Part shown: one piece after another, positions 40,609 through 61,309 of the stretch
How positions within the stretch are numbered: position 1 is the stretch's first letter
Layout: each line of letters starts with the position of its first letter
NCBI GenBank assembly: GCA_029881995.1
Contig: JAOULO010000009.1
Span: 1-64,000, forward strand
Length of the DNA stretch: 64,000 nt
From: Gammaproteobacteria bacterium
GTDB lineage: Bacteria > Pseudomonadota > Gammaproteobacteria > UBA6429 > Thiohalophilaceae
Direction of reading: 5' to 3'
Made by a program: the position numbers and the translations under genes
Notes under the pieces: model-generated
Told to the model about the DNA's origin: nothing
What the model saw: only the letters and a program-made list of their open reading frames with translations
Databases searched by the model: none

Positions 40609-43600
40609 ATGGCAGATCCTTATGTAATAAAAATGCCCCAGCTGTCTGACACCATGACCGAAGGTGTGGTGGTCAGTTGGGAAAAGAATATCGGTGACAA
40701 GGTGGAGCGTGGCGATATCGTCGCAACAGTCGAAACCGACAAGGCCATTATGGATGTGGAAGTGTTCCGTGAAGGTTATCTCTCTGGCCCTGTTGCCGAA
40801 GTGGATTCCACTATCCCAGTGGGTGAGGCAATGGCCTATCTTGTTGCCAGTGCCGATGAAGTACAGAGTGACGGCGCTGCACCAGCAGCCAGTAGTACTC
40901 CATCAGAATCAGCAGCACCTGAAGCCACTGCTCCAGCTGTAGATGAAACACCTGATAATGCCTATATGGTCAAGATGCCTCAGTTGTCTGACACCATGAC
41001 CGAAGGTGTGATGGTCAGCTGGGAGAAAAATGTTGGCGATAAAGTGGAACGTGGTGACGTAGTAGCCCAGGTCGAAACCGACAAGGCCATCATGGATGTT
41101 GAAGTCTTCCGTGAAGGTTACCTGTCCGGCCCAATCGCCGAGATCGATTCGACTATTCCTGTCGGTGAGGCGATTGCCTTCCTGGTGGCGGATGCCGGTG
41201 CTGTAATGGACAGCAAGCGCACCGCCAGTGCCGCTGCGGCACCAGTTGAATCTGCCAAACCTAAACCCATTCCCGCTGGTACGGCATCGGCCAAGACCCG
41301 CGCCCCGGCTCAGCCCCACGGTGCGACCCCTGCACCCCGACCGAATAGCAAGAATGCCACACCTTATGCTCGCCAACTGGCCGGTGCCCATGGTATCGAC
41401 CTGAACAGTATCCCTGGTACCGGACCCGGTGGGGCTGTTATTGCAGCAGACGTATTAAATAGCAATGTGCAGAAGACCTCCACCAAACGTATCTTCCAGG
41501 TGCCCGGTGAAGGTCGGCCTATGTCGGCCATGGAGAAGGCGGTATCCCATAACATGGAATACTCCCTGTCCATGCCCCTTTTCCGCGTCACGATTAATAT
41601 TGACCCGAGTGCCCTGAAGACGGCCTCCAAGGCCAAGGGCTTCTCTCTGACGGTGACTCTGGCCAAAGCCGCCGGTCTGGCCATTGAGAAACATCCTTCC
41701 ATTAATGCCGTATACCAGCATGAAGATCGTATCGTCGAGCGTGAGCAGGTGGATATCGGGATTGCGGTAGAGACAGAAGGCATGGGCCTGGTCGTTCCCG
41801 TCTTGCGTGATGTGGTGAATACAGATTTAGGTGGCCTTTCTGCCAGTTGGAAAGACATGGTAGACCGTGCTCGTGCTCGTCGCCTGAAACCGGATGAGTA
41901 CTCTAACCCGACCTTTACCATCTCCAACATGGGGATGATGGGCGTGTCGCACTTTGATGCCATTCCCTCGCCGGGTACCTCGGCCATTTTTGCGATTTCG
42001 ACCCTTGGCCCACAGGGGATGCCGGTCACCATTACGGCTGACCATCGAATCGTCAACGGTGCCGATGCGGCCAAGTTCCTGAATACCTTTAAAGGGCTGG
42101 TTGAAAGCCCGACCTGGCTGGATTCTGCGGCCGCTTCTGTGGCATCTGCTCCAGCAGCCGTACCTTCAAGCGGCTTTGAGCTGGCCAAGGGCAAGTATGA
42201 CTACGATGTGGTTGTGATCGGTGGTGGACCGGGTGGTGAAGACTGTGCCCGTGACCTGATAGAGCACGGCTTCAAGGTGGCCATGATCAATGATGCACCC
42301 TTCCCTGGTGGTGAGTGTCTGTGGCGCGGTTGTATCCCGTCCAAGGCCTGGCGTGCAGCGGCAGACCGCATGCGTGACCGCGCCCATGACAAGCTGCTGG
42401 GTATCAGTGGTACGGACAAGCCATCTCTCGACTGGAGCAAGATGGAGAAACATCGCCGCACAGTTCTCGAAGAACGCGGCAAGATGGCGCTCAATACCGA
42501 CAAGGGCGTGAAGATCGATGTGATTCAGGGCTTTGCCCGTTTTGAAGATGAACACACCGTATTTGTTGATACCGGCGGCAACCAAAAAGACCCTCATACC
42601 CGGGCCCAAGAGGGTGATGGTAAGAAGGGTAAGAAGATCAGCTTCGGTGCGGCCGTCATTGCCACCGGTGCGCCTCCCTTTGTGCCCCCGATTCCCGGTG
42701 CCCATGATGGCCTCGCCAGTGGTGGTGTACTGACCTCAGACACCGTCTGGGGTCTGAAAGAACAGCCTAAGAAAGTCGGGGTTATCGGTGGTGGTGCCAT
42801 TGGTTGCGAAATGGCGCAGATCTTCCAGGATTTTGGGGCAAAAGTGACGCTATTGGAAGCGAACGAGCGCATTCTGGCTGAGGTGGAGACCGAGGTGGCC
42901 AAGCAACTGACGGCCATCCTCAATGAGGACAAAAATCTCTCCATCGAGACGGCGGTCAAGATCAAGGATATCAAGGGTGAACCTGGCAAGATGAAGATCG
43001 CCTATGAAGGTGCGGACGGCAAGGCCCACAACTTCAGTTGTGATTACGTCATCATGGCCACCGGCAAACGCCCGGTTCTGGAACCTCTACAGCTGGATAA
43101 GGCGGGTATTCAGACGGAAAACGGTGTCATCAAGGCGGACAATCGTTGCCGTACCAACGTGCCCCATATCTTTGCCGTGGGCGATGTGATTGGTGGTCTG
43201 ATGCTGGCCCATACCGCCGGTCAGCAGGGTCGCGTGGCGGCCCACAACATCGGTGGTGAGGCCCATGTCTATGACCAGGATAAGGACTCCGGTGTGATCT
43301 TTACCCGCCCCGAGGCAGCCTTTGTGGGTCTCTCCATGGAGCAGGCCAAGGCCAAGGGCATTGATGCCGCCGAGGTGAAAGTCCCTATGAGCGTGGATGC
43401 CAAGGCCATGATTACCGGTGAGACCCTGGGTCTGATCAAGATCGTGGCGGACAAAAAGTCTCATCAAATCATAGGGGTACATATGCTGGCCGACCATGCC
43501 GATACTCTCATCGGTGAGGCCGTGATGATGGTTTCCGCCAATATGACCCTGGAGCTGGCCGGTCAGGCTATTCACCCACATCCAACCCAGACAGAGCTGT

Positions 43601-43668
43601 TTGGTGAACTGGCCAGACGCCTCTCTTCACGTCTGCGCCGAGCAGAAAAACGGGCCAAAAAGAAATAG
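40609..43668 (+). CDS. Fused pyruvate dehydrogenase E2-E3: dihydrolipoyl acetyltransferase plus dihydrolipoyl dehydrogenase
   Basis: A 1019-residue chain joining two normally separate subunits. Order: lipoyl domain 1 (lipoyl Lys45 in ETDKAIMD), lipoyl domain 2 (Lys159), Ala/Pro-rich linkers, peripheral-subunit-binding domain (~250-285, TPYARQLAGAHGIDLNSIPG), acetyltransferase core (~305-515; catalytic His in DHRIVNGADAAKF, where the usual D-G is N-G), a short linker, and a full E3 flavoprotein (~533-1019) with FAD site VVVIGGGPGGEDCARD, redox disulfide Cys570/Cys575 (CLWRGCIPSK), NAD site GVIGGGAIGCEMAQ and catalytic HPHPTQTE. The two lipoyl domains are almost identical. Fusion should fix E3:E2 stoichiometry at 1:1, unlike the usual sub-stoichiometric E3. 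Confidence 0.94.
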   Translation: MADPYVIKMPQLSDTMTEGVVVSWEKNIGDKVERGDIVATVETDKAIMDVEVFREGYLSGPVAEVDSTIPVGEAMAYLVASADEVQSDGAAPAASSTPSESAAPEATAPAVDETPDNAYMVKMPQLSDTMTEGVMVSWEKNVGDKVERGDVVAQVETDKAIMDVEVFREGYLSGPIAEIDSTIPVGEAIAFLVADAGAVMDSKRTASAAAAPVESAKPKPIPAGTASAKTRAPAQPHGATPAPRPNSKNATPYARQLAGAHGIDLNSIPGTGPGGAVIAADVLNSNVQKTSTKRIFQVPGEGRPMSAMEKAVSHNMEYSLSMPLFRVTINIDPSALKTASKAKGFSLTVTLAKAAGLAIEKHPSINAVYQHEDRIVEREQVDIGIAVETEGMGLVVPVLRDVVNTDLGGLSASWKDMVDRARARRLKPDEYSNPTFTISNMGMMGVSHFDAIPSPGTSAIFAISTLGPQGMPVTITADHRIVNGADAAKFLNTFKGLVESPTWLDSAAASVASAPAAVPSSGFELAKGKYDYDVVVIGGGPGGEDCARDLIEHGFKVAMINDAPFPGGECLWRGCIPSKAWRAAADRMRDRAHDKLLGISGTDKPSLDWSKMEKHRRTVLEERGKMALNTDKGVKIDVIQGFARFEDEHTVFVDTGGNQKDPHTRAQEGDGKKGKKISFGAAVIATGAPPFVPPIPGAHDGLASGGVLTSDTVWGLKEQPKKVGVIGGGAIGCEMAQIFQDFGAKVTLLEANERILAEVETEVAKQLTAILNEDKNLSIETAVKIKDIKGEPGKMKIAYEGADGKAHNFSCDYVIMATGKRPVLEPLQLDKAGIQTENGVIKADNRCRTNVPHIFAVGDVIGGLMLAHTAGQQGRVAAHNIGGEAHVYDQDKDSGVIFTRPEAAFVGLSMEQAKAKGIDAAEVKVPMSVDAKAMITGETLGLIKIVADKKSHQIIGVHMLADHADTLIGEAVMMVSANMTLELAGQAIHPHPTQTELFGELARRLSSRLRRAEKRAKKK

Positions 43669-46492: not shown

Positions 46493-47776
46493 ATGGATGA
46501 AATTGAAAATCTGCTTGAGTTTGATAAACAGCATGTCTGGCACCCCTACAGTGCCATGGCCAGTGATATACCTGTCTATCCTGTAGTATCCGCCAGTGGG
46601 GTAAGGCTGACACTGGCCGATGGCCGTGAACTGATTGATGGTATGTCGTCCTGGTGGAGTGCCATACATGGTTATAACCACCCGGTAATGAATTTTGCCA
46701 TTAATGAACAATTGAAAAGTATGGCCCATGTTATGTTTGGTGGTTTAACGCATCCACCGGCCGTGGTGTTGGCCAATAAACTTGTCGAACTGACACCGGA
46801 TGCATTACAGACAGTATTTTTCTCCGATTCGGGATCCGTGTCTGTTGAGGTCGCCATGAAAATGGCCATTCAATACTGGTATGCCCGTGGTGAGATTCAT
46901 CGACAAAAATTTCTCACACTTCGATCGGGCTATCATGGCGATACCTTCGGTGCCATGTCGGTCTGCGATCCTGTTACGGGTATGCATGGCTTGTTTAATG
47001 AGGTGCTGGCCCAGCAGGTTTTTGTGAATGCACCGCAGTGTCGATTTGGTGAGACTGACTGTGTTGCAGATGTTAATGAGTTTGAAAAGACATTAGCTCA
47101 GCATAAGAATGAACTTGCCGCCGTAATCATGGAACCTGTTGTACAGGGAGCGGGGGGAATGCGATTTTATTCAGCCGATTACCTGGCTAAAGTTAGACAG
47201 TGTTGTGATGAACATGGAGTTTTATTGATTCTTGATGAAATTGCGACCGGTTTTGGTCGGACAGGTAAAATGTTTGCCTGTGAGCATGCGAATATTGCGC
47301 CTGATATCATGTGTGTTGGCAAGGCACTGACCGGTGGTTACATGAGCCTGGCCGCAACCCTGACGACCACTGAAATCAGTGAGACCATCAGTCAGAATGC
47401 ACCAGGTGTGTTTGTGCATGGTCCAACCTTTATGGCCAATCCCCTGGCCTGTGCAGCCGCCAATGCCAGTATCCAGTTACTACTGGATTCAGACTGGCAG
47501 AAAAATATCAAACGTATTGAACAGGAACTGGAAGCAGGACTGGCACCCTGTAAAGATTTTAAAAGTGTCAGTGAGGTTCGGGTACTAGGTGCGATTGGTG
47601 TAGTGGAAATGAAACAGCCAGTCGATATGACAACAATTATGGAAATGTTTGTCGAACAAAGTGTGTGGATTCGACCTTTTGGAAAGTTGGTTTACGTGAT
47701 GCCACCTTTTATTATGAATAATGAAGACTTAACTTTACTGACAACTGCCTTATGTAAGGTTGTTGAATCTATTTAA
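46493..47776 (+). CDS. bioA: Adenosylmethionine-8-amino-7-oxononanoate aminotransferase
   Basis: PLP enzyme using S-adenosylmethionine as amino donor in biotin synthesis. The N-terminal [42 protein letters not shown] (PLP Asp) and [16 protein letters not shown] (Schiff-base Lys) are characteristic of BioA, distinguishing it from other class-III aminotransferases. Length 427. No other bio gene is adjacent. It is convergent with the GGDEF/EAL gene, overlapping its end by 4 bases. Confidence 0.94.
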
Positions 47777-50652
47777 CTTGAATGATCTATGTTTTTCTGA
47801 ACCTGTTCCATTATGGATTTTGGTCCCGTCGTGCTTTTGGCATTATTGAGTAATAAGCGAGTGGCTTCTTCAAATGGTAATGGCTTGCTGAATATAAACC
47901 CCTGTAACTGATCACACTTCAGACGTCGAAGAATATCAATCTGTTGTGAATGCTCCGCACCTTCTGCTACAACTTTAAGATTCATGGCATGCGCCATCGC
48001 GATAATGGCGGATACAATGGCGTGGTCATCCATATCATCCTCAATGTGCATAATGAAGGAACGATCTATTTTTATGACGCTAATGGGGAAACGCTTTATA
48101 TAATTCAGTGATGAGTAGCCAATCCCAAAATCATCAATGGCAATTTCCACACCCTGTTCATGCAACTCATAAAGAATGGGGGTGACTGTTTCGATATTCT
48201 CCATCATCATGTTTTCAGTCACTTCAAGCTCAAGGTTACCAGGTGGGAATCCTGTTTCGTCAAATATGGCCATGACTCGATCCAGAAAATCATTTTTCTT
48301 CAACTGGACGGCTGAAAGATTCACGGCCACGCGCAAATCGATTAAACCTGCCTGTATCCATTTATTGGCCTGTAGGCAGGCTGTTTTCAGTACCCACAGG
48401 CCTAGTTCATTGATCAGTCCGGATTGTTCAGCAATTGGAATAAATTGACCGGGTGAAATATCTCCCAGATCAGGATTACGCCAGCGTGCCAGGGCTTCAA
48501 GCCCGGTGATTCTACCCGTATTCAGATCCACTTTTGGTTGATAGTGTAAGTAGAGTTCGTTATTTTTTAGTGCATTATGTAACTTGTTTTCTATTTCAAG
48601 CGTGTCGATTGTACTGGTATTGAACTCAGCCAGGTAAGGCTGATGGACCTGTCCTCCCCGATCTTTAGCGTGGTTGATGGCAGCTTCAATATTTCTCAAC
48701 AATACTTCAGCTGATTCCCCATCCTGAGGATAGATACTGCTACCAATGCTACAGGTCAGATTTATTTCCTTGTCACCATGTCTGAAGGGTATTTTTATGG
48801 CCTGTTGAATTTTATCGGTTATGGCAGAAATCTGTTCAAGCGAATGGGCCGTACGACATATGATCCCAAATTCATCGCCCTTCAAATTAAAGACATCAGT
48901 TTTGTCTTTACATGATCCCTGCGAAAATTGCCGTACCAGCCGTTGACGAGTCTCTTCTATAAACTCATCACCTGTTTGATGACCCAGAGTGTTGTTGATT
49001 CTCTTAAACATATCGATGTCGATAAGGAAAACAACCAGACCTTGCTGTAATTCATTGCATTCATGAATAGATGAATTCAGTAGCCGGATAAAACCTGGGC
49101 GACCTGTCGTCAGTTCTGTAACATTGTCGATGGTTGTATTTTCATCCTGAAGGTTATCTTTTATTTCTGACCATTTATTTACCTGATTGCGACCATTTTC
49201 TTTAGAAAAATATAAGGCCTGGTCAGCCTGTTCGATTAATTCATTGAGTGACATGGCTTTATCGTGACTGTCGGCAATACCAAAACTGGAGGTAATTTTC
49301 ATGTCCTTAGTTGCCGGGTCGGTTGAAAAGTCCAGTTTTTCAACCTGCTGACGAATCCGTTCTGCAATATTAACTGCACCTGTGGCATCGCTGTCTTTTA
49401 GATACAGGACAAACTCTTCACCCCCATAGCGGCAGGCCAGATCTCCATTGCGCATATTGTCCAGAATAGTCCTGGCTAGGGTTTTGATTACATTATCACC
49501 TACGCCGTGGCCATAAGTATCATTTACCAGTTTAAAGTGATCGATATCCAGCATGACACAGGAAAAGTCTTCAGCTGATTGTATTAGTTCTCTAAACTGG
49601 GGTTCGACGGTTTCAAAAAAGGCTCGACGATTCAGGCAACCCGTTAGAGGATCTCGCGATGCCAGAAAAGCCAGTTCCTTGTTCTTTTTTGCTACTTCTG
49701 CCTGGGATTTTTTCAGGGTATGAACCGCTTTGTTGAGCTGGGTGTTACGAAGTTGTAGCTGGGTAACATCATTAAATGTCACCATGCTGCCTCGCACCTT
49801 CTTATCTTCACCGGTAATGGGGGCTGCATTCACCAGGAAGGAACGTTGCCCAAACTTTTTTGTCTGTAAGCTCATTTGCGCTTCCGCAATGGCCCTGTTT
49901 GATTTCTGAGCCTGGGTCCAGGGCATTTCGTCGGAACTCCCGGACTTATATCTCCAATTCATTTTCTTAGGGGATTTTCCAGTCAATGTTTCTGCGTCGA
50001 CCCCAACCAGCTGGGCAAACGCATTGTTCGCCAGAATAATGCGTTCTTTATCATCAAGGATTAAAAGCCCTTCAGAAATGATATTCATGGCATTTTTAAC
50101 TCTATCGGGTATAACAGCATTGGGATCAAGATGCGTCAGGGTTTTTCTAAGTAAATAGCCATACAGGAAATAGCCGAGTACACCGACAAAGACAATCAAT
50201 AAAAGACTATTATTGATGGATACTCCAAAGACATTATTGCTGCTGATTGGTTTGAATCGAAGCTCTAAATTACCCCATTGTCGGCGTCCGGCATGAATCA
50301 TTAATTGCACCTGTTCACTGGTAGACTTGTCACTGCTTCTAAGTGTCCAGTTTTTGCGATGTGGTCCGACCTCGATAAGAATATAGCCTCTGGCATTACG
50401 GATGGCAGACGATAGGATTTCAGGGTTACGCTCAGTAACGGCGTTTAGATGCTTGCGAACCTGTTGTGTCTGGTTATTGGCGGCGTATTGGGTTACCTGT
50501 ATGGCCAGGTTCTCTATTAGTGCTTTGCGATTTTGTAATTGTGCTTTTTTATTATCAGGTAGTATTCCGAATAACTGGGCCAGAATGAGTACGGCAATTG
50601 TCATGGTGACCAGTCCAAAGGCAATGCGTTTATCTGGTGATACCGGGTTCAA
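47773..50652 (-). CDS. Membrane PAS-GGDEF-GGDEF-EAL c-di-GMP protein
   Basis: A 959-residue second-messenger enzyme. TM1 ~12-31, a periplasmic region, TM2 ~150-170, a PAS domain (~185-305), an intact diguanylate cyclase domain (RYGGEEF, ~410; FSCVMLDIDHFKLVND), a second cyclase-like domain whose signature is LKGDEF (~590) and therefore probably inactive or GTP-binding only, and an EAL phosphodiesterase domain with catalytic motif LEALARW (~717-723), DDFGIGYSSL and VVAEGAE. A predicted bifunctional enzyme. Its start lies 15 bases after the giant LEPR-XLL gene, so c-di-GMP control of that surface protein is a reasonable inference. Confidence 0.93.
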   Translation of the reverse strand: MNPVSPDKRIAFGLVTMTIAVLILAQLFGILPDNKKAQLQNRKALIENLAIQVTQYAANNQTQQVRKHLNAVTERNPEILSSAIRNARGYILIEVGPHRKNWTLRSSDKSTSEQVQLMIHAGRRQWGNLELRFKPISSNNVFGVSINNSLLLIVFVGVLGYFLYGYLLRKTLTHLDPNAVIPDRVKNAMNIISEGLLILDDKERIILANNAFAQLVGVDAETLTGKSPKKMNWRYKSGSSDEMPWTQAQKSNRAIAEAQMSLQTKKFGQRSFLVNAAPITGEDKKVRGSMVTFNDVTQLQLRNTQLNKAVHTLKKSQAEVAKKNKELAFLASRDPLTGCLNRRAFFETVEPQFRELIQSAEDFSCVMLDIDHFKLVNDTYGHGVGDNVIKTLARTILDNMRNGDLACRYGGEEFVLYLKDSDATGAVNIAERIRQQVEKLDFSTDPATKDMKITSSFGIADSHDKAMSLNELIEQADQALYFSKENGRNQVNKWSEIKDNLQDENTTIDNVTELTTGRPGFIRLLNSSIHECNELQQGLVVFLIDIDMFKRINNTLGHQTGDEFIEETRQRLVRQFSQGSCKDKTDVFNLKGDEFGIICRTAHSLEQISAITDKIQQAIKIPFRHGDKEINLTCSIGSSIYPQDGESAEVLLRNIEAAINHAKDRGGQVHQPYLAEFNTSTIDTLEIENKLHNALKNNELYLHYQPKVDLNTGRITGLEALARWRNPDLGDISPGQFIPIAEQSGLINELGLWVLKTACLQANKWIQAGLIDLRVAVNLSAVQLKKNDFLDRVMAIFDETGFPPGNLELEVTENMMMENIETVTPILYELHEQGVEIAIDDFGIGYSSLNYIKRFPISVIKIDRSFIMHIEDDMDDHAIVSAIIAMAHAMNLKVVAEGAEHSQQIDILRRLKCDQLQGFIFSKPLPFEEATRLLLNNAKSTTGPKSIMEQVQKNIDHSS

Positions 50653-50667
50653 TGTTTATTCCTTAAC

Positions 50668-53600
50668 TTAATTTTTGTGATCGTTATTGAAGTCATCAAA
50701 AACTGAATCAACACCATCGCTTTCAGTTGCCTTGTCAGGATCGGTAGTATTTTTGTCTTTTTTCGCGTTAAGTATAGGCAAGGGGTCAAAACTGTTCCAG
50801 GCAGGCAGGGTTGTTAATAAGGCAGTCAATAGTGAACTACCCTGTAAGGCCCAGGTGACAAAACCGGCAGTCAGACCTATCGTTACACCGGCTGTCGTGG
50901 CAATAACAATCTGACCATTGGATTCTTCTGCACGGGCATCGTCGCCCAGTTGCTCATTAAGTTCATCCAGCACCTGTTGTAAGTCAGTTAGCTTAATATT
51001 ATCTGCCTGCCAGGCTGAGATGGAATCTATTAGAACATTCTCAGTTTCAACCAGTTCATGTTCCGAAATAACATTAACTTCATTACCTGACTCGTTACCA
51101 ATCAGTGCCTGGACAAGTGGCTGATTACTATGTGTTACAAGGACGGTAGGGGTACCATTTCGATCAACGGTGACTTTTACATCAGGCTCTTTTTCCAGTG
51201 TGCCAATGTCCTGTGTATCAGGATCAGCTTCTTCTGATGGGTTTTCTTCCTGCGTAATGTCAATGCTTACTGAACTATCATCATCCTCAGTGCCCGAGGT
51301 ATCTATATCGGATTGTGGTGGGCTATAGCGTACCGTCTCGTTGGTATTAGAGTTATCTTCCACACCAGTAATGATTGAAGTTGTTGGGGATGAGAGTGTT
51401 TCTAAAGTTCCATGTGTGTCGGTATAGCTTATGGTGACGTTTATTGCGCTACCCACATCTGCATCGGTGAGGGTATAACTGCTGTCGGTTGCACCAGTAA
51501 TGGGCGCCCCATCTCGAAGCCATTGGAAACTGAAGGTACCCAGGCCATCGGCATCAGCCAGGGATGCAGTATCAGCGGTCAGGGTTTGATTTTCGGTGGT
51601 CGTACCGGAGATAGTAATATCACCAGTGGGGGTGTCATTTATATTGGCCACGGCTGCTGTAGCCGGAGAGGTGACAGTCTCACTGGTACCATGTCCATCT
51701 GTGTAGCTGACCTCCACACTAATACCTGTGCCCACATCGGCATCGTTAAGGGTGTAGGTGCTACCAGTCGCACCAGTAATCGTGGCCCCATCGCGCAGCC
51801 ATTGATACGAGAAGGTACCCAGACCATCGGCATCGGTGAGGGACGAGGTGTCGGCCGTTAAGGTTTGATCTTCAGTAACCGTACCGGAGATGGCGACACC
51901 ACCGGCGGGCACATCATTTACATTGGCCACAGCACCAGTGGCCGGGGAGGTGACCGTTTCACTGGTACCATTTCCATCGGTATAGCTGACCTCCACACTG
52001 ATGCCTGTGCCTACATCGGCATCGGTTAGAGTATAGGTGTTGCCGGTAGCACCACTGATAGTCGCCCCATCACGCAGCCATTGATAAGAGAAGGTGCCAA
52101 GGCCATCGGCATCCGCGAGAGATGAGGTATCAGCAGAGAGGGTTTGATCTTCGGTGACAGTACCCGAAATTGCTATACCACCAGTTGGGGCTGAATTGGT
52201 TGTAACCGGACCAATAGATGATGAAACGACATTTTCAACTGTGCCATGACCATCGGTATAAGTTATTTCGACCGTCATGTTTGCACCGACATCACTTCCA
52301 GTCAGCGTATAACTGCTGCCGGTGGCACCGGTGATAGTGGCTCCATCTCGTAGCCATTGATAACTGAAGGTACCAAGGCCATCGGCATCAGACACTGAGG
52401 ATGTATCAGCGGTCAGGTTATTTCCTTCAAACGTTGTACCCGTGATTGAAACGCCACCCGTGGGATTATCATTCACATTGGCCACAGCCCCAGTAGCCGG
52501 GGAGGTGACAGTCTCACTGGTGCCATGACCATCGGTGTAGCTGACCTCCACACTAATACCTGTGCCCACATCGGCATCGGTAAGGGTATAGGTGCTACCA
52601 GTGGCACCAGTAATTGTGGCCCCATCACGTAGCCATTGATAAGAGAAGGTACCCAGACCATCGGCATCGGTAAGCGATGAGGTATCGGCCGTTAAGGTTT
52701 GATCTTCGGTGACCGTACCAGAGATGGCGACACCACCGGCAGGCGCATCATTCACATTGGCCACAGCCCCGGTGGCCGGGGAGGTGACAGTCTCACTCGT
52801 GCCATGTCCATCGGTGTAGCTGACCTCTACACTAATACCTGTGCCTACATCGGCATCGGTAAGGGTGTAGGTGCTACCAGTGGCACCAGTAATCGTGGCC
52901 CCATCACGCAGCCATTGATACGAGAAGGTACCCAGGCCATCGGCATCGGTGAGGGACGAGGTACCGGCAGTTAAAGTTTGATCTTCAGTGACCGTCCCGG
53001 AGATGGCGACACCACCGGCTGGTGCATCATTCACATTGGCCACGGCCCCGGTGGCCGGGGAGGTGACAGTCTCACTCGTGCCATGTCCATCGGTGTAGCT
53101 GACCTCTACACTAATGCCTGTGCCTACATCGGCATCGGTAAGGGTGTAGGTGCTACCAGTGGCACCAGTAATCGTGGCCCCATCACGCAGCCATTGATAC
53201 GAGAAGGTACCCAGACCATCGGCATCAGTGAGGGACGAGGTATCGGCGGTCAGGGTTTGATCTTCAGTGACCGTCCCGGAGATGGCGACACCACCGGCTG
53301 GTGCATCATTCACATTGGCCACGGCCGCTGTGGCGGGGGAAGTGACTGACTCACTGGTACCGAATCCATCGGTGTAGGAGACCTGTACACTGATGGCCGT
53401 GCCTACATCGGTATCGGTAAGGGTATAGGTGTTACCAGTCGCACCAGAAATAGTGGCCCCATCACGCAGCCATTGATAAGAGAAGGTACCCAGTCCATCG
53501 GCATCGGCCAGTGAAGTGGTATCGGCGGTCAGGGTCTGATCTTCGGTAACTGTACCTGAAATTGCCACGCCACCAGTGGGGACAGAATTTGCATTGACGT

Positions 53601-54687
53601 TGATGGTAACGATATCGGTATCACTTAGAGGACCACCACCACCAAAGCCATTGTCATAGGTATAGATGGTAAGTGTATCCGTCCCAGTCCAACTGCTGGT
53701 TGGTGTATAGACCATACCATCCAGTGCAGCGTTGATATCTGCATAAGCACCATTGACGGTAATGCTTGAGCTGCCATCAGCCCCTGCAGTTATGGACAGG
53801 CCGGTCGTTTGACTTAAAGTGATCGTTCCATTCGTAACCGAAATAGTAACATCAGGGATGTCACTATCAGCATCGCTGACACTTATCAGATTGCCATTCC
53901 CTGATGAAAAAGTAATGGGAATATCCGTAACTGTAGTTTGGGTACCTGGAACTGAGTTAACCGGGGCGTTGTTTGGTGGTAGTATCCCAACCCAGTCCTG
54001 CTGCAGTGCTTCACTAAACGCAAGATTGGTTTCAACAATACCTGACTGAAACTCCAGATCCCAGTCACCGCCAAGATCAGCATGTCCGGTTATATCGTCA
54101 CTGGCAGCAATATCCGTTCCGGTCAGAACATTCAGAGACTCGAGCAGGTTGAGGCCCTCTTCACTGGAAGCCACGTCACAACCATAGATCAATAAATCAG
54201 CCTGTTCACTTAAAGCACTTTGCCAGCCTGTAATAGTATCGCGATAACTGTCCAGTGTGTCGTTGGTCAGGCTGCTGTTACCAAGATAGAGTCCTTCCTC
54301 GTCACCATGAGAGACCAGGTGGATGGCATCCAGATCCTGATAGTTTTCCAGAACAGCACTGATTTGATGGACCCCATCTAGGCTGGTATCGAGAATATAG
54401 ATATCGATATGGTCTTTACCCGCCAGATCAGCCATGAGCTCATCATAGTCAGGGACGTTTTCATCGATAAAGATCACTTCACTAGCAGGTGAAGCGTTGT
54501 ATGCATCATGCTGGATGGTTTCCAACTGCAGGATTTCAACCTCTGCCTCGGAAATGGTTTCGACAATGGCGGCTTCGTCATCTGGCAGGTTGGTATCCAG
54601 CAACACGGCCTCGGCCCCGGCTGAAAACAGCAGGCGGGGTTCAAGTTCTTCATGTATCAAACCTGTCAGTGCGATCTTTTTTCCCAT
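50668..54687 (-). CDS. Giant LEPR-XLL/DUF4347 surface-type protein with eight 93-residue repeats
   Basis: A 1339-residue protein without a classical signal peptide. The N-terminus carries the LEPR-XLL motif (LEPRLLFSAGAE, residues 15-26), then a DUF4347 domain (~68-235; IDENVPDYDELM, HLVSHGDEEGLYLG, LLIYGCDVAS, GGDWDLEFQSG), a cadherin-like segment (~237-365), and eight tandem ~93-residue Ig/cadherin-like repeats (each with SYQWLRDGATI... and YTLTDADVG). After an acidic linker (~1106-1200) and a short helical segment comes a hydrophobic module (~1255-1310; GVTIGLTAGFVTWALQGSS and ALLTTLPAWNSFDPLPIL) and a charged tail. This fits a long extracellular protein held at the envelope. The export operon is immediately upstream. 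Confidence 0.9.
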   Translation of the reverse strand: MGKKIALTGLIHEELEPRLLFSAGAEAVLLDTNLPDDEAAIVETISEAEVEILQLETIQHDAYNASPASEVIFIDENVPDYDELMADLAGKDHIDIYILDTSLDGVHQISAVLENYQDLDAIHLVSHGDEEGLYLGNSSLTNDTLDSYRDTITGWQSALSEQADLLIYGCDVASSEEGLNLLESLNVLTGTDIAASDDITGHADLGGDWDLEFQSGIVETNLAFSEALQQDWVGILPPNNAPVNSVPGTQTTVTDIPITFSSGNGNLISVSDADSDIPDVTISVTNGTITLSQTTGLSITAGADGSSSITVNGAYADINAALDGMVYTPTSSWTGTDTLTIYTYDNGFGGGGPLSDTDIVTINVNANSVPTGGVAISGTVTEDQTLTADTTSLADADGLGTFSYQWLRDGATISGATGNTYTLTDTDVGTAISVQVSYTDGFGTSESVTSPATAAVANVNDAPAGGVAISGTVTEDQTLTADTSSLTDADGLGTFSYQWLRDGATITGATGSTYTLTDADVGTGISVEVSYTDGHGTSETVTSPATGAVANVNDAPAGGVAISGTVTEDQTLTAGTSSLTDADGLGTFSYQWLRDGATITGATGSTYTLTDADVGTGISVEVSYTDGHGTSETVTSPATGAVANVNDAPAGGVAISGTVTEDQTLTADTSSLTDADGLGTFSYQWLRDGATITGATGSTYTLTDADVGTGISVEVSYTDGHGTSETVTSPATGAVANVNDNPTGGVSITGTTFEGNNLTADTSSVSDADGLGTFSYQWLRDGATITGATGSSYTLTGSDVGANMTVEITYTDGHGTVENVVSSSIGPVTTNSAPTGGIAISGTVTEDQTLSADTSSLADADGLGTFSYQWLRDGATISGATGNTYTLTDADVGTGISVEVSYTDGNGTSETVTSPATGAVANVNDVPAGGVAISGTVTEDQTLTADTSSLTDADGLGTFSYQWLRDGATITGATGSTYTLNDADVGTGISVEVSYTDGHGTSETVTSPATAAVANINDTPTGDITISGTTTENQTLTADTASLADADGLGTFSFQWLRDGAPITGATDSSYTLTDADVGSAINVTISYTDTHGTLETLSSPTTSIITGVEDNSNTNETVRYSPPQSDIDTSGTEDDDSSVSIDITQEENPSEEADPDTQDIGTLEKEPDVKVTVDRNGTPTVLVTHSNQPLVQALIGNESGNEVNVISEHELVETENVLIDSISAWQADNIKLTDLQQVLDELNEQLGDDARAEESNGQIVIATTAGVTIGLTAGFVTWALQGSSLLTALLTTLPAWNSFDPLPILNAKKDKNTTDPDKATESDGVDSVFDDFNNDHKN
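51366..53598 (-). repeat. Eight tandem 279-bp coding repeats in the LEPR-XLL gene
   Basis: Eight units of ~93 codons. Units 2, 3 and 4 (about 52476-53310) are nearly identical in DNA, differing at only a few bases over hundreds; units 1, 5 and 8 diverge most. The pattern suggests recent expansion by unequal recombination and likely copy-number variation between strains. Confidence 0.9.
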
Positions 54688-54874: not shown

Positions 54875-55702
54875 TTATTTTGCATTTGGCAAGAACTGGG
54901 CCTGACAGCGCAAGCCACTCGGGATTCGATAGTCCGGGTTGGGCAGGGCCAGACGAATCCCAAAGGTCCCACTGGCTGCATCGATAAGTTTGTCCACTAC
55001 CGTGACCGTGGCCCTGGCTGGCGCATAATTGGGTAATTCCGGGATGATGTCTGCCTGCATGCCTTTTTTAATCAGACCAAACATTTCTGAGGTCAGAATC
55101 AACTCGACTCTAAGGGGGTTAATCTTGGCCAGTTTTATGACCGGCCTGTCCTTTACCGATTCCCCCAGGGAGAGATGGAGTTTTACCACAATGCCATCGA
55201 AGGGGCTGCGGATACTGCGTTCCATCAGTTTTTGCATGGCCTGTTGGTATTCCAGCTTTGAGAGCAGCTTTTCCCGTTTCGCCAGATCCAGTTCTGATCG
55301 GGCCAGCTTCAATTCTGTTTCGGCCTCGTCTTTCTGAAAACTGCTCGCAGCCTTTTGCTTGTGTAATTTTTTAATGCGATCCAGCTTGCGTTGGGCAAAG
55401 GCCAGGTAGGCCTGTTTAGAGTCAATTTTTTCCTGCATTTCAGACTGGGCCTTGGCCAGGATGGCAGTGGACAGGTTAACCGATTGATTCAACTGGGCCA
55501 GTTTTTGCCCCTTTTTGACAATGTCACTTTTGCTGACGAAGAATTTCTCTATTACACCATCCACCGGGCTACCCACATCGGCAAGGAGTTCCGGTTCGAT
55601 GAGGCAGTCAAAAGAAGGCAAGGGGGGAGTGTTGGCAAATGCGGCCAGGGGCAGGCATACCAGACAGGTAAGAGTCAGTTTGGTGTTAATCGAGGTTTTC
55701 AC
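54875..55702 (-). CDS. Periplasmic adaptor (HlyD/RND membrane-fusion type), last gene of the export operon
   Basis: A 275-residue secreted protein: signal peptide (residues 1-23, ...LAAFA), a split lipoyl-like barrel (GSPVDGVIEKFFVSKSDIVKKG... and RSIRSPFDGIVVKLHLSLGE) flanking a long alpha-helical hairpin (~75-160), and a beta-barrel domain (VELILTSEMFGLIKKGM...). It lacks an N-terminal membrane helix, unlike type I HlyD, and resembles the soluble adaptors of tripartite pumps. No RND or ABC pump is encoded nearby. It begins 17 bases after the SecA-like gene and is likely to act with the two membrane-bound HlyD fusions upstream. Confidence 0.87.
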   Translation of the reverse strand: MKTSINTKLTLTCLVCLPLAAFANTPPLPSFDCLIEPELLADVGSPVDGVIEKFFVSKSDIVKKGQKLAQLNQSVNLSTAILAKAQSEMQEKIDSKQAYLAFAQRKLDRIKKLHKQKAASSFQKDEAETELKLARSELDLAKREKLLSKLEYQQAMQKLMERSIRSPFDGIVVKLHLSLGESVKDRPVIKLAKINPLRVELILTSEMFGLIKKGMQADIIPELPNYAPARATVTVVDKLIDAASGTFGIRLALPNPDYRIPSGLRCQAQFLPNAK

Positions 55703-55719: not shown

Positions 55720-57708
55720 CTATTCCCTCCTGCCATTAAAGGCCAGAGTTTTGTCCTGTTGGTAATCCCACTTCAACAGGCGATAGCGTATTCGAGACTG
55801 TTCTGCCTGCTTGATCGTCTGCGCCCAGAAGATCAATAAGCGGCCTAACCAGATGGGTAAATGGCGATGTGGTTTGAGCATGGCTGACAGTCGCGTCCGT
55901 AAAGATACAGGGATAGTTTTAAAAATTCGGTCATCCAGTGACAGGATGGCTTCACAGCTACCACGGTTACCCTGCCTAGCCGTACGGCCATACAATTGCC
56001 GATCGATACGATGCGCATCATTTAATTCAACTGCGATCACGTGCAGACCTCCTGCCTGTCTTGCTTCTTTCAATAGCCTTATATCGGTCCCTCGGCCTGC
56101 CATGTTAGTACTAATAGTAATTTGCCCAGTTTTACCTGCTTTGGAGATGATCCTGGCCTCATCTTCATCTTGTCGTGCATTAAGGATTTGATGAGCTAAA
56201 CCGGCTTTATCGAGTAACAGGCCGAGATATTCAGATTCACTGACCGAGCGAGTACCCACGAGTATAGGACGACCTTTTTTATGTATTTTCTCGATACGCT
56301 TAACACAAACATGCCATTTAATTTCCATGCTGCTGTAGATACGTTGCGGTAAGATCTTACGGCGACTTGGTTTTCTGGTAGGAACAACGAATACATCCAG
56401 TTGATAAATTTGTTTGAGTTCCCCGGCCACTTCCCGGGCTGTCCCTGTCATGCCGGCCAGATGCAGGTATCGATTAAAAAAGCGTTGGAAGCTGATGCGG
56501 GCAAGGATGGTTTTTTCACTACTAAGAGCACAGCCTTCCTTGCATTCTACCATTTGCTGTAAACCCTTTTGCCAGTTGCGATCCTGTACACGCCTACCAG
56601 TATTCTCATCAATAAGTTCAATCTGATTGTCCTTAACAAGATAGTCTCGACCGGCCTGGAGAATAAACATGGCCCGTAAGGCCAGTGTGATATTCTGCTG
56701 ACTCTGTGGTTCTGACCATTTTAGATTCAGCGTGTTAACAATTTCACGTATGCGCTGCAGGCCTAGCTCTGTGAGTGTGATTCTGGGTTCATTTAAACTT
56801 AATATGAATTCATTATTCTCTTTAAGAAGGTTGGCAATAGCTAATGACTGGTAATAATCAGTTAATTCCGGATGAGTCATCTGGTCCTTTGCCAATATTA
56901 AGGGAACACGAGCATCATCGATTAAAACACTATCAGCCTCATCAATAATGGCAAAGCAAAGACCACGGAGTAGAGGGACATGGTCCGTCGATATATGTTG
57001 ATTAAGCTGGCTATCAAGCTGATGTCGTAATGCCTTATGTTGTAGCCCGTCCTGTCGACGATCTCGCAGGTAGTCCAGGGCAACCTGTTTACTGGTACAG
57101 TAAGTTATATTACAGGCATAGGCATGGCGTCTTTCTTCAAGGGTTGACTCACTGCTTATAACACCAACCGAGAGACCAAGTGCCTTGTAAACAGGCTCCA
57201 TCAATCGTGCATCACGTTGGGCGAGATAGTCATTGGCTGTAATAATATGAACAGGTATTCGAGCCATAGCCGCTGTGCATGCAGGAAAGGTAGCAGACAG
57301 TGTTTTACCTTCCCCGGTTTCCATTTCGGCAATACTTCCCTGCATCATGGTCCACGCAGCCATGAGCTGAACCTTGTAAGGACGCATTTTTAATTTTTTT
57401 ACGATGGTATAATAAGTCAGGGCAAAGCTGTCGATAATATGTTTATCTTCCAGGCCATCACGTACCATGGCGTAGCGAAGTTGTGTGGCATAGTCCTTAA
57501 ATTCAGTTTCATTCATTCCCCGGATAAATTTCAGTCGGGGTTTAAATTCCTGGTAAAACTGGTTAAACCTGGTTTTACGAGTTCCCTGTAAAATCTGATA
57601 ACGGCCAAGCAGATATGCAACATAGTCATCAAACCGGTTGTTACTTTGCTCTCCTTTTTCAGGATAGGTGTCAATTGACAGGCTGGAGGTAAAAGGTGTA
57701 CTAAACAT
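55720..57708 (-). CDS. Shortened SecA-like ATPase of the export island
   Basis: A SecA paralogue of 662 residues against ~900 for housekeeping SecA. Walker A is METGEGKTLSA (~132-136 for GEGKT), DEAD-type Walker B is IIDEADSVLIDDARVPL (~256), and the second motor domain has LAGMTGTA, STNMAGRGTDIRL and YGRTARQGNRGS. The C-terminal zinc-binding and linker tail of SecA is missing, and the sequence ends soon after LSLDDRIF. It probably drives export of a special client through SecYEG or another channel. The start at 57708 is chosen because GGGGAGG lies four bases upstream and overlaps the previous gene by 8 bases. Confidence 0.92.
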   Translation of the reverse strand: MFSTPFTSSLSIDTYPEKGEQSNNRFDDYVAYLLGRYQILQGTRKTRFNQFYQEFKPRLKFIRGMNETEFKDYATQLRYAMVRDGLEDKHIIDSFALTYYTIVKKLKMRPYKVQLMAAWTMMQGSIAEMETGEGKTLSATFPACTAAMARIPVHIITANDYLAQRDARLMEPVYKALGLSVGVISSESTLEERRHAYACNITYCTSKQVALDYLRDRRQDGLQHKALRHQLDSQLNQHISTDHVPLLRGLCFAIIDEADSVLIDDARVPLILAKDQMTHPELTDYYQSLAIANLLKENNEFILSLNEPRITLTELGLQRIREIVNTLNLKWSEPQSQQNITLALRAMFILQAGRDYLVKDNQIELIDENTGRRVQDRNWQKGLQQMVECKEGCALSSEKTILARISFQRFFNRYLHLAGMTGTAREVAGELKQIYQLDVFVVPTRKPSRRKILPQRIYSSMEIKWHVCVKRIEKIHKKGRPILVGTRSVSESEYLGLLLDKAGLAHQILNARQDEDEARIISKAGKTGQITISTNMAGRGTDIRLLKEARQAGGLHVIAVELNDAHRIDRQLYGRTARQGNRGSCEAILSLDDRIFKTIPVSLRTRLSAMLKPHRHLPIWLGRLLIFWAQTIKQAEQSRIRYRLLKWDYQQDKTLAFNGRRE

Positions 57709-59845
57709 TGAACCTCCCCAGCAGAAGTTGTTGCAACCTGCGTCCCCATTGCTTTGCGAGTGGTTGATAGGCATGACGAATCTTCACGTAGACCCTGCTG
57801 CCAATTTGATTACCGATAGAGTTTTTGGGCAGATATAATTCAAGTTGGAAAACTTTTTCGACTGTCTTTCGGCCAGAGGGATCATCCGGGTCGACCAGCA
57901 CCTTGCCACCACCTTTAATACCCAGTGCAGCAGAAGGCAGATATTTAATTGCTTCAGGTACAAGACGTTTAAATCTTGCAGTGACCAGTTTATCTAATTG
58001 TCCAACAGGGCGAATTTCAAAAACTGAGGTTTCAGGATTAAACAGGGCAATTTCTTCCTCAGATATGATGACCTGAGCTGTGATATGTGCTGGGTCAAGG
58101 ATAAAACCAATAAGCTGCCCGGCCTGAACGAACTGATCGGGAAGATCCTGAATGTCAGGCACTATCAGTCTACCAGCAGCCGGGCTTGTAATGCGTAGCG
58201 ATGCAAGGCGATCATTGTTTAAATCCAGTTCGCTTTTTAGAGCCGTTATTTCCTGTTTTAACTGTTCTTCTTCCAGGTGTTGTCCTCGTTTGGCCTTTAA
58301 TAAGGCATCTTTCTCTCTTAGCATGGCTTTTAAGACATTTACTTTTCCTGCCAGCAATGGATCTTCTACCCTAAGAATTGTTTGCCCTGCTAAAACTTCC
58401 TGGTTGTTGCTAACATGAATCTGGCGAATGAAACCTGGGGCTTTGGATTTTATTTGCATTTCCTCACTCAACCAGATAATGCCTTCTGTTGAGCTGGTGT
58501 GGGGTACAGGAATAAGAAAAACTGCAATAAGGATAATGAGTGAAACGGATGCTACAACTATACTGACGCGAGCTCGTTGCTGGGATATTTCCAATGAATT
58601 AGTTAAATAATGAATATATTTCAGGCCTGGTAAAATAAACTGCACAGTAATCACCCATGCAGCCAGAAAAATTCCTATAGCGAAAAATTTATCGATCAAC
58701 ATACCCAGAATGAATAGCATGATAAATATTCGACAGATAAAAGCCGAAATAGCATAAATGAGGAATAGTTGGGCTTCTTTTTCGGTGCTCAGGCCATTAT
58801 CGATTTTAATAACATTGAATAATGCCTTATGCAAAATGAATGAAAGATATTTCTTGGATCGAGAAGCCAGATTAGGTGATTCGATCGCATCAGCCATGAC
58901 ATGGTAGCCATCAAATTTAAGAAGAGGATTGCCATTAATTAATAGAGTGGAAAGACCACCGATCAGTATTATATCAAGACAGATGGTGCGTATCAGTCCA
59001 GGTTCAATTGCTAACCATACAAGTAGTGCCAAACTCGCCAGGCTTGTTTCGATAATAATTCCCATGGCACTGACAAGTATTCTTTGGTGTTTGTCTGGAA
59101 AGGCTATGGCATTGTGTGCGTTAACATAAGGAATAGGTATAAATGCCATCATCATAATGCCCATTTCATTTACTTCACCACCAAAATGTTTTATGGCATA
59201 GGCATGTCCTAGTTCATGTAAAAGTTTTATAATTGGGTATATGAGGATGATTATGAAAATGTTACTGGTGCTGAAGGCATGTAGCCGGGTTGCATTGCTG
59301 AGTTCTGGCCAGTTTAAAATGGCCAGCATTAAGGCCAATGCTGTCAGACCCAGCCAGGCATAGAAAACTTTTTTTCTGAACAGGGGGGTGATAAATCTAA
59401 GAGACTGGCCAAGCAATTTATCAGGGTTAATTAAATTAAACCTTATGGCAATCGGATTTAGAAAGTACTGTTTGATGCGCTGTTTTTTTGAATTTTTCAC
59501 GCGGAGGCTTAACTCATCAATATCCGGGACTTTGTCAGTTGAAATAAGTTCTGATAGATATAGTTTTCCCAACAAGCTTATTAATTCATCCTGTGTTGGT
59601 GGATTGTTACTGAATTTTGTACAAATAATGTCATATAGTTCAGCCATGGTTCGATGGCCATTCATACAGCTGATAAAAAACCAGGCTGTAGCGTTAAATC
59701 GATGAGAACGCCCAAGGTGGGTATCGTACAGGATAAACCAGGCTTGATTCCGATATTCATGTCGATGTGTTGTGATATGCCCCTGTAAGCGTGGTTTTGT
59801 ATCAGCTATTCGATACCAGCTTGTGCTTGTGTTATCAGTTGACAT
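57701..59845 (-). CDS. PqqD-like/M50 site-2 protease/HlyD fusion membrane protein
   Basis: A 714-residue three-part protein. Residues ~1-110 look like a PqqD-type peptide-chaperone domain (FILYDTHLGRSHRFNATAW...LISLLGKLYLSELIS). Next is a multi-span membrane domain with the M50 zinc-protease motif HELGHA (His ~211) and the second ligand region NPLLKFDGYHVM (~310). A C-terminal HlyD-type part follows (~450-714) with split lipoyl-like halves (IKSKAPGFIRQIHVSNNQEV, ITSPAAGRLIVPDIQ), a coiled coil and a barrel. Known relatives pair intramembrane proteolysis with export. It overlaps the SecA-like gene and starts 12 bases after the GAF-HlyD gene. Cleavage of the LEPR-XLL protein near its N-terminal motif is a plausible role. 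Confidence 0.9.
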   Translation of the reverse strand: MSTDNTSTSWYRIADTKPRLQGHITTHRHEYRNQAWFILYDTHLGRSHRFNATAWFFISCMNGHRTMAELYDIICTKFSNNPPTQDELISLLGKLYLSELISTDKVPDIDELSLRVKNSKKQRIKQYFLNPIAIRFNLINPDKLLGQSLRFITPLFRKKVFYAWLGLTALALMLAILNWPELSNATRLHAFSTSNIFIIILIYPIIKLLHELGHAYAIKHFGGEVNEMGIMMMAFIPIPYVNAHNAIAFPDKHQRILVSAMGIIIETSLASLALLVWLAIEPGLIRTICLDIILIGGLSTLLINGNPLLKFDGYHVMADAIESPNLASRSKKYLSFILHKALFNVIKIDNGLSTEKEAQLFLIYAISAFICRIFIMLFILGMLIDKFFAIGIFLAAWVITVQFILPGLKYIHYLTNSLEISQQRARVSIVVASVSLIILIAVFLIPVPHTSSTEGIIWLSEEMQIKSKAPGFIRQIHVSNNQEVLAGQTILRVEDPLLAGKVNVLKAMLREKDALLKAKRGQHLEEEQLKQEITALKSELDLNNDRLASLRITSPAAGRLIVPDIQDLPDQFVQAGQLIGFILDPAHITAQVIISEEEIALFNPETSVFEIRPVGQLDKLVTARFKRLVPEAIKYLPSAALGIKGGGKVLVDPDDPSGRKTVEKVFQLELYLPKNSIGNQIGSRVYVKIRHAYQPLAKQWGRRLQQLLLGRFNV
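57713..57719 (-). promoter_or_regulatory. Ribosome-binding site fixing the SecA-like start
   Basis: GGGGAGG followed by TTCA and ATG on the minus strand. This near-perfect site, inside the end of the M50 fusion gene, decides the start at 57708 over an upstream in-frame start at 57774 and predicts translational coupling. Confidence 0.8.
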
Positions 59846-59857
59846 ATTTATCAGAAC

Positions 59858-61309
59858 CTAGAATGACCATATGGTAAAACGTAACCAGTCAGTAAATCGA
59901 TGCAACCAGATCCAGACCAGTTTTCGCTCACCAATTTCAATTTTCGCGACGCCATGCATACCTGGACGCAGCAATACATTTTTTTCTTTAAGCTGGGCTT
60001 CAACCTTGAAAAAATTTCGCCCATCTTCAGCGATAGAAACTGGTGTGATATTTTTTATTGTAAAAGTCATCAATGTATCGGGTTGACTAGCCAGAACCAG
60101 ATGACCGATTTGTTGTGTGTTGATCCAGGCGATGTCCCTGTCATCAATCTTGAGAATAATACGATAATCGTCCAGTGGGGCGATTTTCAGCAGTACCTGA
60201 CCCCTTTCAACAGGTGAACCCAGGGCCTGTTCCAGGTTACCTTCTATAATCACGCCATCAAAAGGTGCTGTCATTTGCAGGCGCTTGAGTTGCTCACGAA
60301 TTATATTTAGTTCAGCCTTTGCCTGTTGCATTTTGGCACTGGTGATGCTGACCTGTGTCAGGTCATATTTGGCACGAGCATCTCGATATTCACGACTAAA
60401 ACTGTCATATGAACCCTGTAGCTTCATTTTTTGTAATTGCAGTTCTCGATCGTCAAGATGGGCCATTAACTGACCTGATGTCACTATATCTCCGGCTCTG
60501 ACATGTACCTCAGAAATAAAACCATCGATAGGCGAGGTAATTACACGTTGTATTTTCCCTTCCAATAAGGCGACGCCACTTACTCTGTGGGTGCCTGTAG
60601 CAAACAGAAGAAATAGTATAACCAGCAATCCAGAAATATAGGATGCCTTTTCTGTATAATGTCCTTTCCCTGTCAGGCCATCCCAGGACTTCTTAATTCG
60701 AGCCCATGCATATTCTTTCAGCCAGTTTTCCTCCTCGTATTTAAGTAAAATAATTGGGCTAATGAGCAGAGCAATACGTTGGCAAAAGAAAATAGTGTCC
60801 TCATCAAAAGGGTTATCATTCAATCTCTCCAGTGTCAGCACACCGATAATTTCATGAACATGAGTGAGTAGTACAGTACAAATACTTTTATGAGGATGCT
60901 TGCTGGCAAGCTTTGAGTGGGCACTGGTTATCAGTAGCTTATCTTCTTTTAGCGGTGGATAAATAATAGTAGATTTTTGATCCTGGGCCTCATTCATAGC
61001 GTCAGAGATAGAGTTTATAAGATGCGATTCCGGGCTGACACCGGCGGCGAAAGATATTGCATGTGGTGCATTTTGTTTTGCCCGGTTGATTCTCAGGCTA
61101 ACCCGTTCACACTTAAGATGTCTGGCCAGTTCATTCACCAGTGTATGGCTGACAGCATGAAAACCTTTATGCTCCAGGCTGGCGGCAATTAATTCAATAA
61201 TGATGTGTTCATTGGCTTGCAGGGCTGGACCTTCATCAATCAGATGTTGGCGCTCAATCTTTGTTGAGTTGCTATTACCGCTTTGTGTTTGGAGCTTATA
61301 AATAGCCAT
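59858..61309 (-). CDS. GAF-HlyD fusion, first gene of the export operon
   Basis: A 483-residue protein. Residues ~35-190 form a cytoplasmic GAF-like sensor (FHAVSHTLVNELARHLKCERVSL...ICTVLLTHVHEIIGVLTLERLN). One membrane helix (~225-243; YISGLLVILFLLFATG) leads to a periplasmic HlyD adaptor: lipoyl halves (RVITSPIDGFISEVHVRAGD; MTAPFDGVIIEGNLEQ), a helical hairpin and a barrel, then a second hydrophobic stretch at the C-terminus. Joining a ligand-sensing GAF domain to an export adaptor is unusual and suggests cytosolic gating of export. The operon promoter lies in the AT-rich region 61310-61604. Confidence 0.88.
   Translation of the reverse strand: MAIYKLQTQSGNSNSTKIERQHLIDEGPALQANEHIIIELIAASLEHKGFHAVSHTLVNELARHLKCERVSLRINRAKQNAPHAISFAAGVSPESHLINSISDAMNEAQDQKSTIIYPPLKEDKLLITSAHSKLASKHPHKSICTVLLTHVHEIIGVLTLERLNDNPFDEDTIFFCQRIALLISPIILLKYEEENWLKEYAWARIKKSWDGLTGKGHYTEKASYISGLLVILFLLFATGTHRVSGVALLEGKIQRVITSPIDGFISEVHVRAGDIVTSGQLMAHLDDRELQLQKMKLQGSYDSFSREYRDARAKYDLTQVSITSAKMQQAKAELNIIREQLKRLQMTAPFDGVIIEGNLEQALGSPVERGQVLLKIAPLDDYRIILKIDDRDIAWINTQQIGHLVLASQPDTLMTFTIKNITPVSIAEDGRNFFKVEAQLKEKNVLLRPGMHGVAKIEIGERKLVWIWLHRFTDWLRFTIWSF

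Follow-up and report, generated by a model that had tools for sequence, protein, structure and literature searches.

The window analysed here is a stretch of 64,000 nucleotides (positions 1 to 64,000 of contig JAOULO010000009.1, forward strand) from the gammaproteobacterial assembly GCA_029881995.1 (Thiohalophilaceae). It contains, on the reverse strand, an operon that includes a gene for a single chain, hereafter the fusion, in which a predicted leader-binding domain, an M50 protease, and a periplasmic adaptor of the HlyD type follow one another. We examined the domain composition of the fusion, its conservation, and its association with proteins starting with a LEPR-XLL motif, one of which is encoded in the same window. 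The first domain resembles the recognition elements (RREs) that bind the leaders of ribosomally synthesized and post-translationally modified peptides (RiPPs). The gene and the parts of its product are as follows.

57701..59845, reverse strand: RRE(PqqD-like)-M50-HlyD fusion protein, open reading frame of 714 residues with an ATG start
59531..59800, reverse strand: RRE/PqqD-like leader-binding fold, residues 16-105 (match to the TbiB1-leader structure; PF05402)
58877..59275, reverse strand: M50 site-2-protease core, residues 191-323 (match to the RseP, SpoIVFB, and mjS2P structures; NF041824)
59204..59218, reverse strand: HExxH zinc motif HELGH, residues 210-214
58904..58930, reverse strand: second M50 motif NPLLKFDGY, residues 306-314, with D312 as third zinc ligand
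57743..58513, reverse strand: HlyD/MacA-type periplasmic adaptor domain, residues 445-701 (match to MacA, MexA, and AcrA)

The Pfam model HlyD_3 matched residues 552-609 of the fusion above its cut-off (25.0 versus 22.2 bits). The PqqD model matched residues 38-96 below its gathering cut-off (18.2 versus 23.4 bits), as did the Peptidase_M50 model for residues 199-346 (22.4 versus 27.2 bits), the gathering score of the latter being reached by the relatives L132, L148, and L099. A single NCBIfam model, NF041824 (daptide_HExxH), covered both the PqqD and M50 parts (residues 23-400, E = 7.5e-37). A sequence search of the PDB with the fusion returned weak and irrelevant matches only. Since two of the three parts scored below threshold by sequence, the identity of the domains was settled by structure.

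Structure prediction of the full chain had been suggested in a preliminary description of this DNA. The AlphaFold model, obtained with an 82-row alignment, had a predicted local distance difference test score (pLDDT) of 89 and a predicted template-modeling score of 0.74, and resolved three domains. Residues 16-105 superposed on the lasso-peptide RRE TbiB1 with its leader (5v1v; Z 10.7, root mean square deviation 2.6, 86 aligned residues) and on the lasso B1 protein 6jx3 (Z 10.2); the modeled fold comprises three strands (24-31, 34-41, and 46-51) followed by three helices (52-59, 67-77, and 85-97). Residues 445-701 matched MacA (Z 14.7), MexA (Z 13.7), and AcrA, with Z values of 13-15 overall, and contain lipoyl and barrel domains and a hairpin after a transmembrane helix, as in HlyD-type adaptors. 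The search with the full chain listed HlyD, biotin-carrier, and RRE structures only, and the M50 part was therefore folded separately (pLDDT 90). Its top matches were all M50 proteases (RseP 7w6y, Z 9.9; SpoIVFB 8vjl, Z 9.1; mjS2P 3b4r, Z 8.9), with a clear gap to the best structure of another type (Z 5.8). The HExxH motif and the downstream N-P-x-x-x-x-D zinc motif are located in membrane helices. Hydropathy analysis indicated seven transmembrane segments (160-178, approximately 190-212, 256-281, 283-304, 366-384, 387-409, and 424-446), a number that would leave the RRE on the cytoplasmic side of the membrane and the adaptor on the periplasmic side. Thus, the sequence models and structure comparisons bear out the three-part fusion proposed in the preliminary description: in the predicted structures, the chain is a real fusion of an RRE, an M50 protease, and an HlyD-type adaptor.

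The fusion has at least 589 relatives in GTDB genomes. We sampled eight relatives from 58 related genomes and 80 further loci from GTDB genomes. Both zinc motifs, reported as intact at the outset, are present, and H210, E211, H214, N304, P307, D312, and Y314 are identical in 112/112 aligned members, a count in which D312 and the Asn and Pro residues were partly selected for, as the patterns used to pick the 80 loci included the NPL..D region; HExxH lay outside these patterns, and no such pattern was applied in choosing the sequences that came from searches of whole genomes. The catalytic H, E, H, and D were kept even in members displaying only 17-20% identity with the fusion of the window. Judged from these alignments, the fusion is a large and widespread family rather than a local accident.

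The preliminary description had named a nearby LEPR-XLL protein as the candidate substrate. The corresponding features of the window are as follows.

50668..54687, reverse strand: LEPR-XLL/DUF4347/immunoglobulin (Ig)-repeat protein of 1339 residues, probable cargo
54619..54645, reverse strand: LEPR motif LEPRLLFSA, cargo residues 15-23 (NF012209)
53980..54477, reverse strand: DUF4347 domain of the cargo (PF14252, E = 1.8e-56)
50770..50907, reverse strand: C-terminal hydrophobic hairpin of the cargo with a P-x-W-x-x-x-D-P motif (alignment)

The N-terminus of this protein contains an exact LEPRxL core and scored 15.7-16.2 bits against NF012209, slightly under the cut-off of 17. The protein is real but, at 1339 residues, modest in size, and the term "giant" initially applied to it does not hold. 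Its Ig-like repeats, of about 100 residues each, are nearly identical in sequence, and their number, and hence the size of the protein, may have been collapsed in the assembly.

A narrow regular expression for LEPR found the motif beside only 12/80 loci and was abandoned. Since contigs are often cut and many cargoes lie elsewhere, co-occurrence in whole genomes was used instead. Searching 299 Pseudomonadota genomes for both the fusion and the NF012209 model revealed the fusion in 72, LEPR in 76 (E ≤ 0.1), and both in 62 (Fisher p = 1.8e-39, a value not corrected for kinship; the pairs are nevertheless spread over many families, and their genes are in physical linkage). At E ≤ 0.001, all 35 genomes with LEPR had the fusion; at E ≤ 0.01, the sole genome lacking it contained a LEPR frame of 64 residues. 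In seven of the ten genomes in which only the fusion was detected, a large open reading frame adjoining the module starts with a divergent form of LEPR missed by the 24-residue model (LEARMMFDG, LEQRIAFDA, LLERRIAFDA, LEPRQLFDG, and LEARVMFDG), which brings the pairing to at least 69 of the 72 fusion genomes. A LEPR protein was not identified in the three others (G112, G175, and G202). For 33 of the 63 LEPR frames (E ≤ 0.01), the distance to a fusion gene was 20 kb or less, with at most three fusion copies scored per genome and many contigs being short. Outside Pseudomonadota, LEPR was present in 18 of 21 known fusion carriers, which belong to Desulfobacterota and other former deltaproteobacteria, Omnitrophota, Nitrospira, and Rokubacteria. 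These results indicate that LEPR proteins are almost certainly partners of the fusion machine, and the substrate proposed for it initially is well supported as an association; docking and cutting of that substrate, considered below, are predicted steps. LEPR frames had a median length of 4156 residues. The largest open frame of the survey, of 19,427 residues, is located in G116:C115 near 112865-112924.

The other genes of the operon and its surroundings are as follows.

59858..61309, reverse strand: GAF-HlyD partner adaptor, 483 residues, first gene of the operon (PF01590, PF13437, PF16576)
55720..57708, reverse strand: SecA-like ATPase devoid of the wing/scaffold region (PF07517, 2.5e-87)
54875..55702, reverse strand: small HlyD partner adaptor, 275 residues (PF16576, PF13437)
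47773..50652, reverse strand: PAS-GGDEF-EAL protein, possible regulator (PF00990, PF00563)

The genes for the GAF-HlyD adaptor, the fusion, the SecA-like ATPase, and the small HlyD adaptor follow one another in this order, the LEPR-XLL gene comes 187 nucleotides further, and the PAS-GGDEF-EAL gene is last. The reading frame of the SecA-like protein extends from 57774, but a start at 57708 is likelier; the gene would then overlap that of the fusion by 8 nucleotides, an arrangement also seen in L003. Pfam detected SecA_DEAD, PP_bind, and P-loop matches in this protein. The four-gene order GAF-HlyD/M50-HlyD/SecA_DEAD/HlyD was repeated in many of the loci L099-L139. This module was described by Kamneva, Poudel and Ward (2015, PMC4452313), who noticed that one protein resembles M50 proteases and that SecA has lost its wing-scaffold, proposed a role in secretion with the M50 protein as a pore, and qualified the broader role as "completely unknown". 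Their locus has the same four kinds of genes in the same order, including SecA without wing-scaffold and an M50 protein with an HlyD domain. In contrast, their text mentions no cargo, PqqD or RRE, DUF4347, LEPR-XLL, or subtype lacking SecA (PMC4452313).

Analysis of loci L098-L168 defined two subtypes. Type A, as in the window, mostly contains the SecA-like gene. Type B, exemplified by L132, comprises HlyD, GAF-HlyD, M50-HlyD, a LEPR giant, and usually TolC, in the absence of SecA. TolC was found beside 16 of the 23 SecA-less loci; none was present at the locus of the window, and two OEP proteins are encoded elsewhere in that genome. SecA-like proteins were detected in only 25 of the fusion genomes. 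The fusions of the two types are homologous along their full length (hhalign, 687 columns, E = 9e-88), although the Pfam PqqD match was absent in 10/10 SecA-less members; the profile alignment spans this region, and the daptide model part of it. The components found in both types are limited to the fusion, a pair of HlyD partners, and the LEPR protein, and it is thus the fusion, and not SecA, that probably reads the signal. The residue at position +7 of the motif was Ser in 22 of 24 SecA-type loci (LEPRxLLSA) and Asp in 21 of 21 SecA-less loci (LEPRxMFDGA), a covariation that co-inheritance explains as well as direct contact does. Among the module genes of the SecA-less loci (L132, L130, L134, L148, L154, and others), no recognised energy source was observed.

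In 40 aligned LEPR N-termini, L, E, and R were invariant and P nearly so, followed by x-[LM]-[LF]-[SD]-[AG]; the invariant L, E, and R belong to a core for which the search pattern selects. The 30 residues upstream from the motif had a mean charge of +3.0. No Sec-like hydrophobic core was found (maximum 15-mer hydropathy of 1.04 in the cargo of the window). By these features of sequence, the LEPR N-terminus looks more like a docking and trimming leader than like a signal peptide.

Peptidase-containing ABC transporters combine a C39 peptidase with an ABC ATPase and act on an N-terminal leader. Like type I secretion with an N-terminal leader, they resemble the system proposed here in the idea that a single assembly recognizes the leader, cleaves it, and exports the protein. 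The parts differ, those of the present system being M50, an adaptor, and a SecA-like ATPase found in one of the subtypes. The NF041824 model, which represents an intramembrane metalloprotease of daptide biosynthesis, likewise covers a PqqD-like and an M50 part, and it matched 18/18 of the members tested from the two types. It differs in that the fusion scored 127.3 bits versus a cut-off of 300, and in that the 379-position model lacks the HlyD domain and belongs to a RiPP cluster context. The EpeP/YydH/LiaK epipeptide proteases (NF058609) have a related M50 core (E = 5e-13); the fusion scored 49 against a cut-off of 225, and these proteases lack HlyD and have a small-peptide substrate. EpeP is thought to both cleave and export its epipeptide (PMC10885120), which is the closest functional parallel that we found.

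We therefore consider it probable that the fusion, which nearly always travels with LEPR proteins, forms the core, at the inner membrane, of an exporter that works in one step and is dedicated to proteins starting with LEPR-XLL. In a first step, the cytoplasmic RRE would dock the LEPR leader, which is basic and not hydrophobic, in the way that RREs bind the leaders of RiPPs. In a second step, the leader would be passed on to the M50 site of the same chain for cleavage, the probable cut lying within or immediately after the hydrophobic and small-residue part of LEPRx[LM][LF][SD][AG]. In a third step, the cargo would be threaded through a periplasmic conduit built from the HlyD domain of the fusion, both partner HlyD proteins, and an outer-membrane channel of the TolC type, with the truncated SecA-like ATPase as the putative power source in the SecA subtype. 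We regard binding of the LEPR leader by the RRE as likely; for cleavage of the leader by M50, the balance is only slightly favorable. The architecture and layout fit the coupling of recognition, cleavage, and export in one chain, as put forward in the preliminary description, with binding, cleavage, and export themselves standing as predictions.

Several points weigh against this scheme. M50 proteases usually cleave segments that span the membrane, which the LEPR segment does not. The Fisher values ignore kinship. The fusion-LEPR association is also compatible with recognition of LEPR by another subunit. The module encodes no known translocation pore, and the conduit is an assumption. Finally, no wing/scaffold match was detected by Pfam in the SecA-like protein of the window, although canonical SecA uses this region.

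In a first alternative, the fusion would be the core of the LEPR exporter, but its M50 part would cut the C-terminal hairpin of the cargo, freeing the finished protein from the inner membrane, in place of the LEPR leader. By its type, the hairpin is a better M50 substrate than LEPR, and the hairpin followed by PxWxxxDPLPIL is conserved in the cargo of the window and in six relatives (L018, L026, L037, L073, L129, and L131); Pfam models gave no match to it at the threshold applied. This explanation is unlikely: the hairpin was present in only 4 of the 299 genomes, versus 72 for the fusion, giants adjoining the module end without it, and the protease site is intact in all aligned members. The same low number led us to reject the hairpin as a general signal. 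In the cargo of the window, it may be an anchor or a second M50 substrate site.

Almost equally unlikely is a purely structural role, in which M50 and the RRE would form a pore and a docking platform, with proteolysis being dispensable. An ABC transporter was found neither among the operon genes of the window nor in the L132 module, and the module encodes no other inner-membrane channel, in agreement with the pore proposal of the 2015 authors (PMC4452313). However, identity of H, E, H, and D in every aligned member, including the most distant ones, is unexpected for a mere scaffold. We hold it to be rather improbable that the protease ensures quality control or signaling in the export complex, by cutting an adaptor, stuck cargo, or a regulator, with LEPR being read elsewhere, for example by the SecA-like ATPase. 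The GAF domain of the partner adaptor and the GGDEF-EAL gene located directly downstream do suggest regulation, but LEPR accompanies the fusion at loci lacking the SecA-like gene, and the RRE fold is that of a leader binder. Ordinary type I secretion with unusual adaptors, in a neighborhood reflecting chance clustering of secretion islands, is very improbable despite the T1SS-like HlyD and TolC parts, as the module has no ABC transporter and the co-occurrence and linkage of LEPR are far from chance.

The exporter reading connects a conserved SecA/HlyD/M50 locus, published with no substrate, to the widespread LEPR-XLL motif of very large bacterial proteins, the export route of which is stated in no paper that we found. 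For a large class of huge surface-type proteins, it pairs cargo and exporter in a concrete form that can be tested, and it suggests that giant proteins are secreted by the leader-peptide logic (RRE and M50) known from RiPP biosynthesis. More tentatively, and with somewhat less than even confidence, we propose a distinct class of one-step secretion systems, present in about one quarter of the sampled Pseudomonadota, in which the RRE-protease-adaptor fusion would replace the ABC transporter as the platform, read and remove LEPR, and export proteins as long as about 19,000 residues; one subtype would have a SecA-like motor, whereas no motor is recognisable in the other. No link between LEPR and an exporter was found in the literature searched, which leaves priority uncertain, most subscription journals and preprints being outside its coverage. 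Within this searchable literature, the module has been known since 2015; the recognition of an RRE, the assignment of a cargo, and the subtype lacking SecA appear to be new.

A scan for promoters and terminators gave counts that did not clearly exceed those of shuffled sequences. The PAS-GGDEF-EAL gene begins 15 nucleotides past the cargo gene, a hint of cyclic-di-GMP control of the surface protein. Elsewhere in the window (40609-43668, forward strand), an open reading frame of 1019 residues combines a lipoyl/E2 acyltransferase and a dihydrolipoyl dehydrogenase (E3), forming an E2-E3 fusion beside E1 genes.

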